A DNA stretch of 24,964 nt. Source: a virus. A program made the translations under genes and the position numbers. Below are positions 16,956-24,608 of the stretch, in pieces; positions within the stretch are counted from its first letter, which is position 1, and each line of letters starts with the position of its first letter. The notes under the pieces are model-generated. The model worked only from the letters and a program-made list of their open reading frames with translations, was not told the DNA's origin and did not search any database. The stretch covers positions 1 through 24,964 of the IMG/VR virus record IMGVR_UViG_3300037170_000012, one strand, 5' to 3'.

Positions 16956-17172
16956 TAGGATTACCTCCTTTGAGGTACTCCACAGCATTTGCTTTAAGGC
17001 TAGCTGGCGCTGCTTTCCAACACGGAAGCGTAGTCCAATGTTCTATCACCGACCGGTTAAGCATCCCCATAGGACACAAACCCTCAAGGGTAGTAACTGG
17101 CTCGTGCGTGTAGGGATCCCTGACATCCCATGTTCCGACTTTAATCCAATCTTCATCGAAGTTATTATCCAT
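16948..17172 (-). CDS. Small protein of unknown function
   Basis: 74 residues (MDNNFDEDWIKVGTWDVRD). It overlaps the previous stop by 8 bases and the next start by 8 bases, so it is part of the coupled chain. It is Trp-rich for its size (W9, W15, W46, W52) with two Cys (33, 51), and ends in LKGGNPNG, whose codons also form the ribosome binding site of the next gene. I do not recognise a family. A role in head assembly or as partner of the preceding large protein is only positional inference. Confidence 0.72.
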   Translation of the reverse strand: MDNNFDEDWIKVGTWDVRDPYTHEPVTTLEGLCPMGMLNRSVIEHWTTLPCWKAAPASLKANAVEYLKGGNPNG

Positions 17173-19957
17173 GACGGTTTTCCTTGGTGTCTTCTATGGT
17201 CGCATTATTTACGTTACCAAGGACCACCATCTCATGCTCATTGAGACAACCAAACCCGGTACGAGGAGTAGATAGTATTTGAGAAGCTGGCACCTGAGCT
17301 GCCATCATCACATCGCCAAACTTAGAGGCCGAGGCATAAGACAATGACCACGATGACGCCGGTCGCATTTGGGCGGTGTTGGTACTAGGATTGTTCTGAA
17401 CCCCCGCTACAGGCGTATACGTAATCACTGGAGGAGGTTCACTCTGCCCTCGCTGTAGCTGTACACTGGTCACTCCCTGATCCTTGAGCATCTGCTGAGT
17501 ATCGTTGTATTGCGCCCGGACAAATGCCTGGAGAGTAGCACCATGCTCGGCGGTGATAGCTGCCTGTGCTGGACCCGCTTTCTGCCACTCTTTTGTATCC
17601 GTAAGACCAAACTCTTTCTTTACTGCTTCTTGCATAGCAAGGCTAACAGGGTCATGGTCATTTGAGGTTTGCGCCCACTGACCAATAAGCGTCGAAACAG
17701 CAGCTTCTCGCTCTTTACCTGCCGCCGATAGCTGCTCTATGGGGGGCACTGTAGAGCCCATAATTGGCCTATCTAATCCAGCCGCCGCAATTAGGTCCTC
17801 TGTACTAGCTGTACAGTTGGCAGATATCCTGGTAGCAACATCCGCTTTACAGTCCTTCTCTGACTTAGAACTGAATACCATATTGTCCGCTGCCCAACTA
17901 TATGCGCTAGGGTCGGTCTCGAACTCTTCGTAGCCCTCGCCGAAGACCTCGTTCGACGTGTCAGCTGGTTTATTGGTCGCTTTCTCTTGACTAGTAGTCT
18001 GTACGTACCCTAGCGCTGAGTCCTTTGGTCCTGCCTGAATAATAGCAAGAGCCTCCTGCAGATCGGTTACATCGTGCGGCTGCACGGCGGGCGTAAGAGG
18101 TGCCGGTAGCGGCGCTATGGTAGAAGCAACCGTGTCGTGTGTAGCGGACTGCTGAGACTGAGAGGTACCACCAGATCCAGCATTCGCTCCAGCCTTGTTG
18201 TCAATGTCATTAGCAAAGGTCATCGCCATAAACTCTATAGCGTTGATGTCGAGCCCTTGCTGGCTAGCAAACGAACCAGCAGCATCCTGCATAGCCTGTA
18301 CCGCCAACGGATATATGCCTTGCCCCACATAACCCTCAGCCTTAACGTCAGGACCGGACAGCATCATACCGTAGGTAACATCAGGCTTCATTGAGGGATC
18401 ACTTGACAGTACAGTTGACGCATGCGTGTCAATGGTAATAAACTGCGCCGCACTTGGATCTATAATGTTGTTGACGTAGTTACGCTCTTTCATTGCCCCC
18501 GTAGGAGACAGTATGGTGCTAGGGGTAACAAGCGTGCTCGAATCCCCAACTACATGCCCTAAGCCCAACTCGATAACTTTACCAGCACCGTCACTCCCAA
18601 AGGTGGCAGCGACAACACAGGGGTCCCCATTAGCCTTAGCGCCCCACGCAGTATTGCAGAGAACCTGATCTGCCTTCATCATGCCCATAACTGCGAAGGC
18701 AGCAGTTTTAGTATCGTCCTGCTGACTAAGGCGCAATCCGTTCTGGATGTTTATACCCTTGTCCGTATTGTACTGCTGGAGGATAGCGTCAGGAACACTG
18801 ACAACCGCATCACTCGTAGCCTTGCCTAGTATATACCGAGCAGCCGCCATGTTTGAGGCAATCTTTGTCTGTGCCGAGGTAGCTGCAATGGAGGCAGCAG
18901 CAACCTGAATGGTAGTGCCGGTCTTCTCTGCTATATCCTTAGCCTCATTGTGCGCCCTTCCATACCAGCAAAGCCCATAGGCAACTTGAGCTGCCGTCAT
19001 ATTCTGAGACTTGTCAAGGGCATTCTGCGCCATATGGGCCTCTGATAGGATACCAGGAATGGCCTCAGCTCTGACCTCCAATTTGTCCTGAACAGCCTGT
19101 GATAGACCTAGATCAGTAGGGTTAGACCCGTTCGTTCCTGGCTGATTAACGCTACCAGAGATAAGCGCATATACACCAGGATCCGGCCGGTAGTTCTCGT
19201 TCGCCTTACCAAAGTCCCCAGTACCAAACGTAGGAATACCAGGTAGCTCAAAACTTTTATCAGTCGGATTGCCATTAACATCTCTGGTGAAGATAGTTCC
19301 ATCAGGATTAACTCCGGTAGCCTCGGCTGCGCTTATGCGAGCATTCGCAGCGTTGTTCCATATCTCCTGCTGGTTACGGGTAACCCCTAAGTATGCGGCC
19401 GCAGCAACACCTTGTACGGTCTGAGAGGGTTCTACTACAAAGTTTCCCTGTTTATCCTGCCACCAGCCGATCTGCATATCAGACCTAGCATACAGATCCT
19501 TATTGGCGTTCAAATGATCCATTACTGTCTGAGCCATTACTGCTGGATCAGCACTATACGGTAGCTGCGCCTGAACACCAGCAACCTGATATCCAGTCTG
19601 AGGGGAGCTGCCATCACGAGGATTAACGGTTCCACCATCCGGCCGTTGCGCAAACATTTGCTGCAAGGATTCAACTGTCATAGGATCGCCAGAGGTGGCC
19701 CAAGTTGTATCGCTCGTATCGACAGGAGGCGGTCCAGTGTCTGCGCCAGCCCCTCCACCGCCGCTGGGAGCACCGCCCTCGTTACCGCCAAACTCTCCGT
19801 GGTATACATGGATCTGGGTCTTCTGTTCAGTCTCATCTACGTTAAGACGTTCCTGAATAGACCACGGTGGTTGTATTACCGCCCGCTCGTTGCTCTTAGG
19901 AGCAACGTATGGGACGAAATCTCCTCGTTCGCTTACCTTCCAAGGCAGCTTAGACAT
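17165..19957 (-). CDS. Portal-adjacent (MuF-position) protein with C-terminal ADP-ribosyltransferase domain
   Basis: 930 residues, starting at the portal stop (TAATG). Residues 60-85 are a Gly/Pro linker. Residues about 320-515 match a domain common in actinophage proteins: CWYGRAHNEAKDIAEKTG, VAAASIAATSAQTKIASNM, then FITIDTHAS. Residues 595-670 are a Ser/Thr/Pro linker. Residues about 740-920 carry the R-S-E signature of ADP-ribosyltransferases: Arg836 (VQLQRGQ), the Ser motif SSWSLSYASASKF (868-880), and the ExE motif NEHEMVVLG with Glu907 and catalytic Glu909. Arg/ExE enzymes transfer ADP-ribose from NAD+ to a target, usually arginine. Genes directly after the portal often encode MuF-type proteins packaged in the head and injected, some with toxin-like C-terminal domains. 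Packaging and target are inferred. No clear MuF core is visible in the first 320 residues. Confidence 0.75.
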   Translation of the reverse strand: MSKLPWKVSERGDFVPYVAPKSNERAVIQPPWSIQERLNVDETEQKTQIHVYHGEFGGNEGGAPSGGGGAGADTGPPPVDTSDTTWATSGDPMTVESLQQMFAQRPDGGTVNPRDGSSPQTGYQVAGVQAQLPYSADPAVMAQTVMDHLNANKDLYARSDMQIGWWQDKQGNFVVEPSQTVQGVAAAAYLGVTRNQQEIWNNAANARISAAEATGVNPDGTIFTRDVNGNPTDKSFELPGIPTFGTGDFGKANENYRPDPGVYALISGSVNQPGTNGSNPTDLGLSQAVQDKLEVRAEAIPGILSEAHMAQNALDKSQNMTAAQVAYGLCWYGRAHNEAKDIAEKTGTTIQVAAASIAATSAQTKIASNMAAARYILGKATSDAVVSVPDAILQQYNTDKGINIQNGLRLSQQDDTKTAAFAVMGMMKADQVLCNTAWGAKANGDPCVVAATFGSDGAGKVIELGLGHVVGDSSTLVTPSTILSPTGAMKERNYVNNIIDPSAAQFITIDTHASTVLSSDPSMKPDVTYGMMLSGPDVKAEGYVGQGIYPLAVQAMQDAAGSFASQQGLDINAIEFMAMTFANDIDNKAGANAGSGGTSQSQQSATHDTVASTIAPLPAPLTPAVQPHDVTDLQEALAIIQAGPKDSALGYVQTTSQEKATNKPADTSNEVFGEGYEEFETDPSAYSWAADNMVFSSKSEKDCKADVATRISANCTASTEDLIAAAGLDRPIMGSTVPPIEQLSAAGKEREAAVSTLIGQWAQTSNDHDPVSLAMQEAVKKEFGLTDTKEWQKAGPAQAAITAEHGATLQAFVRAQYNDTQQMLKDQGVTSVQLQRGQSEPPPVITYTPVAGVQNNPSTNTAQMRPASSWSLSYASASKFGDVMMAAQVPASQILSTPRTGFGCLNEHEMVVLGNVNNATIEDTKENRHG

Positions 19958-21626: not shown

Positions 21627-23246
21627 TTAGGTGAACTGATTTGGCGCACAATAGTCTGCTTCCGTAATGAGCTTTGGCTCTCGTATCCCACGCTGAGGTC
21701 CGTGGTCCTGTTCCTCGTAGTCTGTAAGAAATGTAACCTCTGCATACTCCTGCTCAAGGCCCAACTCTTTAGCTCTTTGCAGCGCCATCACGGTGGCAAC
21801 TGCAGCGTCCACATACCCAGTGGACTTCTGATTAACTTTGGTAATGCGGGGCTGCATCGGATCCTTTACCCAGGCGTTGGCCATATGCCGAGCTAGTTCA
21901 GGGTCACCATCATGGTCCAATAATCCCCGCTGTATGTCCTCATAAAGGCGCTGTGTAGACTCAATCATGAGCGCACCTCGCTGAGGAAACGTCACAATGG
22001 GTATTCCCTCGTCCTGAAGTACCTCTAGGTCCGACACCCATAGGGCCGGGTCGCACGCTACTTCGAGAACTTGGTAGTATCCGCACGTTTTACGAAGCTG
22101 ATTCATTACCTCTACCCGTGGTACCCGCCATGTGTCGTCCTTGTATGGTTTCTCCCACAGATGTACCATATGAACAAAGGGAACAGGCCGGTCCACAGTG
22201 ACAGCGATAAGGACAGTAGCGTCGCCATCATAGCTCCCATCGAACCCCAAAACGACACGATCATGGGCAGGAATATTGTACCCATCTTGGTTGACTAAAG
22301 AGGCCCACAATCCCTGCGGCAGCCAGCGCTCGATGTCCACGAGCACCACCTGATTGAAGTAGAAACGCTTAGCAACATACTCAGGAGTCTCAGGGTCTTG
22401 TATCTCCTGATACAGACGCTCTTCATCCACCCAGTAGGAGTCACCTTTGGCAGTCCTAATAGCCTTGGTAACCTCATCGTGGCTCGTTAAGTCTTGTACT
22501 TCCGGCGCCTCAAGGTTGTCGTACCATACTCCGTCGATCTCACCCTTCTCAGTGATGGCGGTGTATGTAGACTCAGCTACCGATCCTTCGCCGGGCTTAT
22601 GAGCGTTCGTAATCTCAAGTGTTCTGCCGGACCCGTCCCTAGCCTTTGCAATATTACGCCGGATGACTCGTGCCATCTCGACGCCTTCGTTGTTATGAAG
22701 CCAGTGGTGCGTTTCGTTGAGAATGCAGAAGCTCGGACGGGGACCTTCAAGCGCTCTTGGGCTAGATGTGACAGCTTTGATGACACCTTTACCACCTCGA
22801 ACGTATATGATAGTCTTACCGAGATCGACGTGAAACTCTTTCTTGAAAGACGTACTAATCATGCCGGGAAATAGACTAGTGGTGTTGCCGGTTTGCTCCT
22901 CGGATACCGCTGCAATCTGTATGAGTGGCATCGGATGTTGTATCCCAATAGGATACCCGTTGGCGTCCCAACCGCCAAACCGACAAGGACCACAAGCTTC
23001 TATTAATGAGAAAGTCGCCAACAGCGGATCTTTTCCCCAGCCTTTGCAACGGCGGATGACACCACGGCGATACGTAAACTTGCCGTTGTCATCTATCCCA
23101 TACCACACGAGGACCATTCTCGCTTGCTCTGGTGTGTACTTCCACGGAGTGCCAGCGTCCGGGCCGTCCGGCTGTAAAATCCAACGTGTGGCCCAGTCTA
23201 AAATACCCCAACCAAGGGTTCTGTTTTCAGCCGGCAACTGATACAA
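21627..23246 (-). CDS. Terminase large subunit
   Basis: 539 residues, the ATPase-nuclease that packages DNA into the prohead. A Walker A-like motif is RRCKGWGKD (residues 65-73). Walker B is PSFCILNETHHW (171-182) with Glu178 and an Asn in place of the usual Asp. The nuclease domain shows VVLGFDGSYDGDATVLI (331-347) with Asp336, VACDP (396-400) with Asp399, and GYVDAAVATVMA (477-488) with Asp480, the three metal-binding acids of the RNase H-like fold. The start codon is TTG at 23246 with AAAGGA just upstream. It follows the small collagen-like gene by 15 bases. Confidence 0.93.
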   Translation of the reverse strand: MYQLPAENRTLGWGILDWATRWILQPDGPDAGTPWKYTPEQARMVLVWYGIDDNGKFTYRRGVIRRCKGWGKDPLLATFSLIEACGPCRFGGWDANGYPIGIQHPMPLIQIAAVSEEQTGNTTSLFPGMISTSFKKEFHVDLGKTIIYVRGGKGVIKAVTSSPRALEGPRPSFCILNETHHWLHNNEGVEMARVIRRNIAKARDGSGRTLEITNAHKPGEGSVAESTYTAITEKGEIDGVWYDNLEAPEVQDLTSHDEVTKAIRTAKGDSYWVDEERLYQEIQDPETPEYVAKRFYFNQVVLVDIERWLPQGLWASLVNQDGYNIPAHDRVVLGFDGSYDGDATVLIAVTVDRPVPFVHMVHLWEKPYKDDTWRVPRVEVMNQLRKTCGYYQVLEVACDPALWVSDLEVLQDEGIPIVTFPQRGALMIESTQRLYEDIQRGLLDHDGDPELARHMANAWVKDPMQPRITKVNQKSTGYVDAAVATVMALQRAKELGLEQEYAEVTFLTDYEEQDHGPQRGIREPKLITEADYCAPNQFT

Positions 23247-23602: not shown

Positions 23603-24058
23603 TTACGCCGCCACTGGCGCAACAGGTACTAGTCGTAGTCCTTGGTAACTCTCTTGGATAGCTGCCTTAACAGCTTCCTCTGAATCAGTCTTTTCCAGCT
23701 CTATACGCATCCGGCGTCGGTCGCCCTCAGTTACTCCGAACCTAGCAAGCTGCGAGAGGCAAGCGTTAACTGCCGTGAAAGATATCTGGCCAGTCATATG
23801 ATTCTCTGAGCGCAGAGATAGGTCGAGTGTATCGAGAATAATAAAGGCCATAGCCCAGTCAGACGATGTGTAGTACTGCGCCATACCAGACTCAGCTAGG
23901 GATCCCCATAGGCGGATGACGGACTTAGTCCAACCAACCTTTGCCTCATATGGCAGCTCGACCTTACGGTCCTCTGTCTTCTCAATCTCAGCCTTATGAT
24001 TCCTGCGCCTCGTGGTATCTGAACGTCCAGGTACTGGGCCTCTAGTTGCTACGGTCAT
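23603..24058 (-). CDS. Terminase small subunit
   Basis: 151 residues from ATG at 24058, which forms a TAATG overlap with the preceding stop; an in-frame ATG at 24076 lies inside that gene and is less likely. The basic N-terminus (GRSDTTRRRNHKAE) suggests DNA binding. The core IRLWGSLAESGMAQYYTSSD, the helix ISFTAVNACLSQLARFGVTE and GDRRRMRIELEK match actinophage terminase small subunits. It recognises the packaging site and loads the large subunit encoded two genes downstream. Confidence 0.85.
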   Translation of the reverse strand: MTVATRGPVPGRSDTTRRRNHKAEIEKTEDRKVELPYEAKVGWTKSVIRLWGSLAESGMAQYYTSSDWAMAFIILDTLDLSLRSENHMTGQISFTAVNACLSQLARFGVTEGDRRRMRIELEKTDSEEAVKAAIQESYQGLRLVPVAPVAA

Positions 24059-24288
24059 TAGATTACCTGCGCCCAAGAGTCGGTCGCCCAGAAGGAGATA
24101 TGAGGTTCATTAGTAAAGCCCCAAGAGTTGTCTGGTACATCTGTTACTGGCAGATCATCCACAGCAGCGGCAAAGTAAAAGCCCGCCAGCGAAACTGGTA
24201 GAGAGTCCACGAATAGTTCAGGAGTATCCCAGGCATGAGCTGGGGTCCAAGCTCCACCACTAGGTAGTTCGTCTGTGTATAAGCTCAT
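24058..24288 (-). CDS. Small acidic protein of unknown function, downstream of pup
   Basis: 76 residues (MSLYTDELPSGGAWTPAHAW). It is acidic and aromatic, with repeated Asp/Trp/Phe residues and no Lys or Arg, and is predicted to be strand-rich. It begins one base after the pup stop (TAA followed directly by ATG). The Gly-Gly-Glu codons of pup (GGCGGAGAA) supply its ribosome binding site, so the two are translationally linked. It ends in a TAATG overlap with the terminase small subunit. I do not recognise a family. Co-location with pup makes a functional link possible but unproven. Confidence 0.7.
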   Translation of the reverse strand: MSLYTDELPSGGAWTPAHAWDTPELFVDSLPVSLAGFYFAAAVDDLPVTDVPDNSWGFTNEPHISFWATDSWAQVI

Positions 24289-24501
24289 TTATTCTCCGCC
24301 TTCTTGAACATAGGATTGGGCAAGTACTTCACATCCGTCCAATACGCTGTCAATCTCATCGAGCAGATCGTCCGTAAAGACCAACAAAGCACTGGCCTCT
24401 GGGGATCTTTGTGACCTTTCGAGCGCCGTAATTTCCTCGGGGGATGAACTAACAGTGTCCTGTACTGCCTGTTCTTTCTGCTCACGGATCAGTACCGTCA
24501 T
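24289..24501 (-). CDS. pup: Prokaryotic ubiquitin-like protein Pup (phage-encoded)
   Basis: 70 residues from ATG at 24501; an in-frame start at 24588 would add 29 residues that read as the antiphase of the zinc-ribbon gene, so the downstream start is chosen (AAGGGG 7 bases upstream, ATGA overlap). The C-terminal half is diagnostic: TDDLLDEIDSVL (43-54), then AQSYVQEGGE (61-70). Cellular Pup from Mycobacterium has DDLLDEIDDVL and AYVQKGGQ at the same places. Pup is ligated through its C-terminal Glu to target lysines by PafA and delivers them to the Mpa/ARC-proteasome. Here the end is already Gly-Gly-Glu, so deamidation by Dop should not be needed. The N-terminal half is low-complexity and disordered, as in Pup, with a single lysine (Lys9). 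One residue is missing before the final helix compared with the mycobacterial sequence, and its Phe54 is replaced by Leu. No ligase is encoded in this window, so host PafA would be needed. Confidence 0.9.
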   Translation of the reverse strand: MTVLIREQKEQAVQDTVSSSPEEITALERSQRSPEASALLVFTDDLLDEIDSVLDGCEVLAQSYVQEGGE

Positions 24502-24608
24502 GCCGGCGCCCCTTCGCAGCAAGATTCCTTGTACCCACATTCGGGACAGCGCCAGTGACACTTCGTGGCGTCGTATACATGCCCGCACAAGTCACAAGCT
24601 CGGATCAT
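24498..24608 (-). CDS. Small zinc-ribbon protein upstream of pup
   Basis: 36 residues, read directly from the sequence. It starts MIRACDLCGHVYDAT and continues CHWRCPECGYKESCC. Two CxxC knuckles (Cys5/Cys8 and Cys21/Cys24), plus Cys17, Cys30 and Cys31, form a rubredoxin-like zinc ribbon. Its ATG overlaps the stop of the HNH remnant (ATGA) and its TGA overlaps the pup start (ATGA), a strong sign of translational coupling. Very small zinc-ribbon proteins are frequent in actinophages and have no assigned role. No strong ribosome binding site is visible, so it is probably translated by re-initiation. Confidence 0.75.
   Translation of the reverse strand: MIRACDLCGHVYDATKCHWRCPECGYKESCCEGAPA

Follow-up and report, generated by a model that had tools for sequence, protein, structure and literature searches.

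The window, by which we mean the whole 24,964-nucleotide stretch of viral DNA analysed here, raises the question of what a phage would do with a gene for Pup, the bacterial counterpart of ubiquitin. The gene occupies exactly positions 24289-24501 on the minus strand and encodes 70 residues, MTVLIREQKEQAVQDTVSSSPEEITALERSQRSPEASALLVFTDDLLDEIDSVLDGCEVLAQSYVQEGGE, which end in Gly-Gly-Glu directly before a TAA stop codon. Its assignment draws on the translation, the Pup family profile PF05639, the selection acting on it and an identical copy in a second contig (L002). The earlier note had placed the product in the Pup family, and the profile bears this out: in hmmscan against Pfam, PF05639 scores 29.9 bits (E 1.1e-6; cut-off 27) and is the sole family at E up to 0.1, with profile positions 15-69 of 69 aligned to residues 19-70. 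The whole window record contains a single PF05639 match (28.1 bits, E 9.6e-8). Among PDB sequences, Pup chains alone match the protein (phmmer, E up to 0.01; four distinct, best E 1.9e-4), and the likeness of its C-terminal part to Pup, already pointed out from the letters, returns in their alignments, with DDLLDEID and YVQ.GGE aligned and one residue missing from the window Pup after VLD. No family was found for the protein in PHROGs, and PADLOC returned nothing for the gene.

The AF2 model of the window Pup is one long helix (residues 34-63; mean pLDDT 71.3); as a single chain with a low pTM of 0.40, it has no bearing on docking to PafA. Block means of pLDDT are 54, 54 and 62 over residues 1-30 and 93 for residues 41-50, and the N-terminal part, modelled at low confidence, is probably disordered. 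The last 34 codons and the stop (SALLVF...GGE; 24289-24393, minus strand) stand out in alignments with PDB and viral Pups and in the AF2 model, and the C-terminal helix is predicted to bind Mpa and PafA. With cellular Pup, as in Mycobacterium and Corynebacterium, the protein shares its length, the low-confidence N-terminal half, the DDLLDEID helix in the C-terminal half and a GG[E/Q] motif, here GGE, at the very C-terminus. It differs in its score (28-30 bits, against at least 65.1 bits for the full-length cellular Pups listed), in the deletion of one residue and in the absence of the canonical docking residues: counted back from the end, Phe(-11) is replaced by Leu, and Gln and Glu stand in place of the basic residues at -9 and -4. 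Nor is the locus the canonical cellular one, the window record, an incomplete genome, containing no pafA or dop. The gene's identity as a viral Pup has good support; that it is a true and functional one, we infer.

The gene stands among phage genes and adjoins those for packaging, in agreement with the earlier note. Reading on from Pup, the order is a 76-residue frame, the small and large terminase subunits, portal, head protease and capsid, and the terminase, portal, head protease and capsid genes rule out that the window is a mislabelled bacterial contig. Ahead of Pup, and overlapping its start through ATGA, lies the gene for a 36-residue cysteine-rich protein with two CxxC motifs and a CC (24498-24608, minus strand), for which Pfam gives merely weak rubredoxin-like matches below the cut-off; a similar frame precedes Pup in the related contigs L005 and L008. 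The 76-residue frame, without an assigned function (24058-24288, minus strand), follows the Pup stop directly (TAAATG). It is absent from L005 and L008, where the Pup stop overlaps the start of a TerS-like frame. The terminase small subunit (23603-24058, minus strand; start set at the ATG at 24058, the ORF listing having a TTG at 24076) matches PF25673 with 110.5 bits and phrog_226, 'minor tail protein', with E 5.4e-30; the Pfam name was preferred over that of PHROGs. The large subunit (21627-23246, minus strand) matches phrog_9 (E 3.8e-70) and has relatives in actinobacteriophages with up to about 41% identity.

Three other proteins of the window, all encoded on the minus strand, deserve mention. 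Between the portal and head protease genes, 17165-19957 encodes a 930-residue protein that contains DUF7178 and whose C-terminus weakly matches, below the cut-off, the ADP-ribosyltransferase family PF07357 (E 0.043); with R, SxS and ExE-like spots, which we take to be an ADP-ribosyltransferase motif, it is a possible capsid-borne ADP-ribosyltransferase. By eye, 537-1577 encodes a protein whose repeats look like those of a YVTN/beta-propeller, and 2-577 is a frame of collagen-like Gly-Ala-Thr repeats; both products are probably tail or fibre proteins.

Three phage species share this Pup, namely that of the window and L002 (identical), that of L005-L007 (mutually identical) and that of L008. Among these sister phages the C-terminal half of Pup is under purifying selection: over the last 34 codons, dN is 0.10 and dS 1.17 between L005 and L008, and pN is 0.24 and pS 0.83 (saturated) between the window and L005. 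The Mpa-type stretch TDDLLDEID is invariant in the three Pups. L005 (26.7 bits) and L008 (25.1 bits) score just below the PF05639 cut-off of 27. A chance or spurious open reading frame is ruled out by the profile match, the presence in three phage species and the dN/dS. The sisters also bear on the changes that the earlier note had seen near the PafA-binding helix. Replacement of Phe by Leu, the deletion and the loss of a Lys are real, and changes of the same kind occur in both sister species; the replaced Lys is not the penultimate residue but the fourth from the end, immediately ahead of GGE. Among viral Pups, Leu or Ile for Phe(-11) together with the one-residue deletion occurs in the window clade (L002, L005-L008) only.

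Relatives of the window phage do not all carry the gene. Seven further relatives by large terminase (L014, L015, L018-L022) gave no Pup match in their records, mostly fragments, and reading the region upstream of the terminase in six of them (all but L015; about 1.1 kb only in L020 and L021) revealed no Pup; L018-L021 are apparently one phage type. Pup is therefore an accessory gene of the window phage group. WhiB, which is characteristic of actinobacteria and their phages, is encoded in G002, the record of L005, and thus points to an actinobacterial host for the window phage. A WhiB gene is present in 13 of the 53 Pup-bearing viral records described below and in one of the seven relatives without Pup.

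To see how far viral Pup extends, IMG/VR was scanned five times with Pup queries, and cultured phages were searched by tblastn. Besides the window, 52 viral loci were found, on 51 IMG/VR contigs and in Streptomyces phage Dagobah; two of the scans, those with the window protein alone and with the window-clade alignment, gave no further Pup-bearing contig. PF05639 matches all 53 records and exceeds its cut-off in 49 (16/20 and 33/33), the four below it being the window sisters L005-L008; scores are 24-30 bits in the window clade and 35-77 bits in the remaining viral Pups. In PHROGs, nine of ten other viral Pups found no family, and the tenth, L029, gave a weak match to a family of unknown function (E 0.0066). 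Every one of the 53 open reading frames, window included, ends in GG[E/Q]; most were retrieved with core patterns in which the C-terminal end plays no part, though one scan also used an end pattern. The PafA/Dop profile PF03136 matches none of the 53 records, many of them fragments, so that the absence holds per record; as a control, the bacterial record MT835496 matches it twice. With no PafA or Dop in the viral records, the ligase PafA of the host is the candidate partner, and the suggestion that the phage feeds it, made for the window alone, gains from this wider set. By their sequences, viral Pups appear as a recurrent gene class without its enzymes, the window Pup being the most divergent found.

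The 52 loci fall into 17 gene-content groups, defined by at least two shared frames in the flanks. In six groups, a profile scan of neighbours, run without L012, L152 and L158, identifies genes for packaging, head or tail in the vicinity of Pup, and a seventh group is that of the cultured phage. Four more groups have Pup beside matches to phage families of primase, helicase, exonuclease or thymidylate synthase, and one has it beside a match to the ribonucleotide reductase family; the sole neighbour protein scanned for L173/L174 and for L147 matched nothing. The intact end in 53/53 records, the spread over 17 groups and the purifying selection speak against a host Pup that was acquired by chance and drifts unused; presence among relatives is patchy, as such a passenger would predict, and the window clade, at 24-30 bits, stays below the 65.1 bits of the lowest listed full-length cellular Pup, but we find this explanation barely credible.

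The neighbourhoods bear more directly on a role in assembly, in which the tag would be placed on scaffold, packaging or virion proteins, for proteasomal clearing or for marking the virion. Four of the 17 groups include members whose Pup lies upstream of terminase genes at a distance of about 0.4-1.5 kb; in a fifth group (L153) it is part of the head module, between the genes for the portal and the head protease. The region upstream of the terminase is, on the other hand, a usual place for accessory genes; other groups have Pup near genes of DNA metabolism (ribonucleotide reductase, thymidylate synthase, primase, helicase), as does L151 of the window's own group, and no Pup could be detected in some relatives of the window phage. 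A role in assembly thus seems quite improbable.

Some viral Pups are unusual in themselves or in their setting. Acidic helix segments are inserted or repeated ahead of the Pup core in L142, L162 (for example ...DDVLDEQIDEELLADIDDLLEEN...) and L123, the Dagobah locus, all three near primase genes. Nine linked contigs (L145, L163, L165-L171) carry similar Pups ending in GGE; neighbours in L145 belong by their matches with families of DNA helicases and SbcC-like nucleases, and are T4-like by reading. A large contig of low GC content (38%), IMGVR_UViG_3300005529_000024 (L012/L023, 174 kb), also carries a Pup.

Among cultured phages, tblastn with the M. tuberculosis Pup gave nothing at E up to 10; since this query missed even MT835496, despite its close Pup, we take the search as blinded by the low-complexity filter. 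The queries L011, L162 and L137 gave no matches, P0002, L028, L173 and L008 retrieved MT835496, and L028 and L173 retrieved Dagobah, whose own Pup matched only itself. Query L008 also matched the major capsid gene in two Gordonia phage NosilaM records (E 2) and, falsely, LR756508.1 (E 5), where the frame does not end in GG[E/Q]. MT835496.1, deposited as 'Bacteriophage sp.', is bacterial in this region: ATPase, Dop, Pup (locus L003, 43630-43716) and PafA can be read one after another, with ATPase and Dop as one long frame, and the record was excluded from every viral count. The count of one cultured phage with Pup is therefore a lower bound.

The Dagobah gene (MT711977.1, HUN42_00036) is already annotated in GenBank as 'ubiquitin-like protein Pup'. 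Like that of the window, it ends in GGE, is accompanied by no PafA or Dop in its record and lacks both basic residues (Asn at -9, Val at -4). Unlike it, the Dagobah Pup keeps the Phe and the full C-terminal spacing, and its gene directly follows that for endolysin and stands one gene before a primase/polymerase gene. The Pups of the 51 IMG/VR contigs resemble that of the window in the same two general respects, GG[E/Q] ends and records without PafA or Dop. With Dagobah they give 34 distinct C-termini, of which 31 keep Phe(-11); the deletion is confined to the window clade.

For a comparison with cells, 34 distinct viral C-terminal 26-mers, from 52 viral loci, were set against 106 distinct cellular ones, from 225 cellular records (one masked). 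The cellular sample consists of Actinomycetota, some Methylomirabilota/Rokubacteria and a few others, and its loci are the best 80 of 518 relatives, 110 of 162 further matches and 37 more, with some repeats; L210 and L307 were dropped for want of a readable Pup end, and L313, partly masked, stands outside the distinct set. A Pup match is present in 160 of 396 sampled Actinomycetota genomes, in 159 above the cut-off, and G111 aside, the lowest listed score of a full-length cellular Pup is 65.1 bits. Two genomes, G221 (C67, C73; one match partly masked) and G264 (C60, C274), have two Pup matches each, which could be duplicate contigs or prophage copies.

The Gly-Gly pair, Gln(-5) and Tyr or Phe at -7 are invariant in both sets. 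A Glu end, which the earlier note had set against the Gln end of many cellular Pups, is not distinctive: it occurs in 17/34 viral and 51/106 cellular C-termini, and in 78/176 distinct cellular C-termini when the last 45 residues are compared. What sets the viral Pups apart is the loss of basic residues. Lys or Arg is found at -9 in 14/34 viral and 100/106 cellular C-termini (20/34 against 6/106 without a basic residue) and at -4 in 25/34 and 105/106 (9/34 against 1/106 without), counts that, like the Fisher p-values, treat related sequences as independent. Glu at -13 is kept in 25/34 viral and 104/106 cellular C-termini, and Phe at -11 in 31/34 and 105/106, the three viral exceptions being the window clade. 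Counted by group, a non-basic residue at -9 occurs in one or more members of 10 of the 17 and in every member of eight. Both basic residues are missing from nine viral C-termini, seven ending in Glu and two in Gln; the other 25 comprise 10 ending in Glu and 15 in Gln (Fisher p 0.12).

Does such a protein act as a tag or as a blocker? As a decoy or saturator, abundant free viral Pup would occupy PafA, Dop or the Mpa coiled coils, pupylation would stall and phage proteins would be spared. A Pup gene overlapping or abutting packaging genes would fit the high late expression this calls for, and it is precisely in the docking segment that the window clade deviates from its cellular counterparts. 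The pathway may also be worth blocking: according to the available part of a study of Rhodococcus infected by phage WC1, proteasome subunits and an ATPase of the host are up-regulated 60 min after infection (PMC10986025). A blocker, however, needs no ligatable end, yet GG[E/Q] is kept in 53/53 viral frames, and losing binding residues is an odd way to a better competitor. The constancy of the end indicates that ligation matters and favours a tag over a plain blocker, which we consider an unlikely explanation without dismissing it.

We propose instead that the viral Pup is a ligatable tag that host PafA would use to redirect pupylation and that Dop would perhaps find hard to remove, a reading that we hold to be evenly poised between right and wrong. 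The Glu end, the Mpa-type helix and the absence of a ligase from the viral records are best explained by a substrate of host PafA. The protein would be made during infection, probably late, and PafA would join it to lysines of host (or leftover phage) proteins. As the available literature extracts describe it, PafA works by activating the side chain of the Glu at the end of Pup, and Pups ending in Gln need Dop first; with its Glu end, the window Pup would thus need no Dop step before ligation. Proteins carrying it would be degraded by the Mpa-proteasome of the host, and the phage would thereby raise or redirect pupylation for its own ends.

The boldest step in this proposal is that the changes in the docking segment (two basic residues lost, Phe to Leu and one deletion) may shift the balance between PafA and Dop, leaving tags that are poorly removed. 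In the available parts of two papers, the contacts of Pup are described as more extensive in Dop than in PafA, chiefly at the C-terminal residue (PMC8599861), and Dop is described as constraining the last four residues of Pup more (PMC5286830). The losses at -9 and -4 lie near this more tightly held end, which suggests altered use by Dop. The step is weakened by viral Pups that lack the basic residues but end in GGQ, since these still need Dop, and the lost Phe and deleted residue mean that host PafA may not accept the window Pup.

A cellular exception also calls for caution. G111 encodes a Pup of about 40 residues (L311, C2:325136-325219; 22.4 bits), the sole cellular one read in which Leu replaces Phe and both -9 and -4 lack a basic residue; 26 of 30 genomes of its order have an ordinary Pup above the cut-off. 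Like the window Pup, with which it shares 13 of 31 aligned residues, it ends in GGE; unlike it, it is chromosomal, shorter and without the deletion, and the C-terminal part of a PafA/Dop-like frame is read just behind it. A Pup of this type can therefore persist in a cell, presumably alongside a matching ligase. The exception warns against taking every viral change as tuning: together with two low-scoring cellular Pups that also lack the basic residue at -9 (L309, L310), it indicates that the losses may follow a divergent host PafA, or drift, instead.

The origin of the viral genes was approached with a tree built from 42 columns, with 35 viral rows and a random draw of 70 cellular ones; this length is too short for most forks to be resolved. 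It needs 15 changes between phage and cell, and none of 200 bootstrap trees has only one; well-supported branches force only three. The window clade has a branch length of 2.31. The best cellular match to the window Pup, among 14 genomes, has E 5.1e-6, and naming a host genus from the nearest cellular Pup was dropped, the window Pup having no close cellular relative. The Pup of L012 groups with that of Methylomirabilis (support 100/92), so capture may extend beyond one phylum, the Actinobacteria. The widest account would have phages of pupylating bacteria capture Pup repeatedly without its enzymes, the tag being attached by PafA, resistant to Dop and hence an irreversible, virus-directed mark for the proteasome; as a whole we think it doubtful.

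Takeover of ubiquitin pathways by viruses of eukaryotes is well established. Among the matches listed in the open literature, a search that takes in little of subscription papers and bioRxiv, there is no study of phage Pup and no parallel to a viral takeover of the Pup-proteasome system. The main text of the Dagobah genome paper does not mention ubiquitin, Pup, the proteasome, pupylation or the locus tag of the gene (PMC7650747), the available text of a 2008 paper on provenance mentions no phage or virus (PMC2588565), and a 2021 review of pupylation does not mention viruses, the 12 listed of its 23 'phage' letter strings belonging to the words macrophage, phagosome or phagocytosis or to Hfq's name (PMC8223512).

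One odd small frame has thus led to a recurrent viral gene class, with 53 records, 17 gene-content groups and one cultured phage, whose members show a clear and testable shift in sequence from cellular Pups. This suggests that viruses exploit the bacterial counterpart of ubiquitin. With Dagobah and its host S. coelicolor M600, the use of pupylation by a phage, and the targets of the tag, can be tested now.
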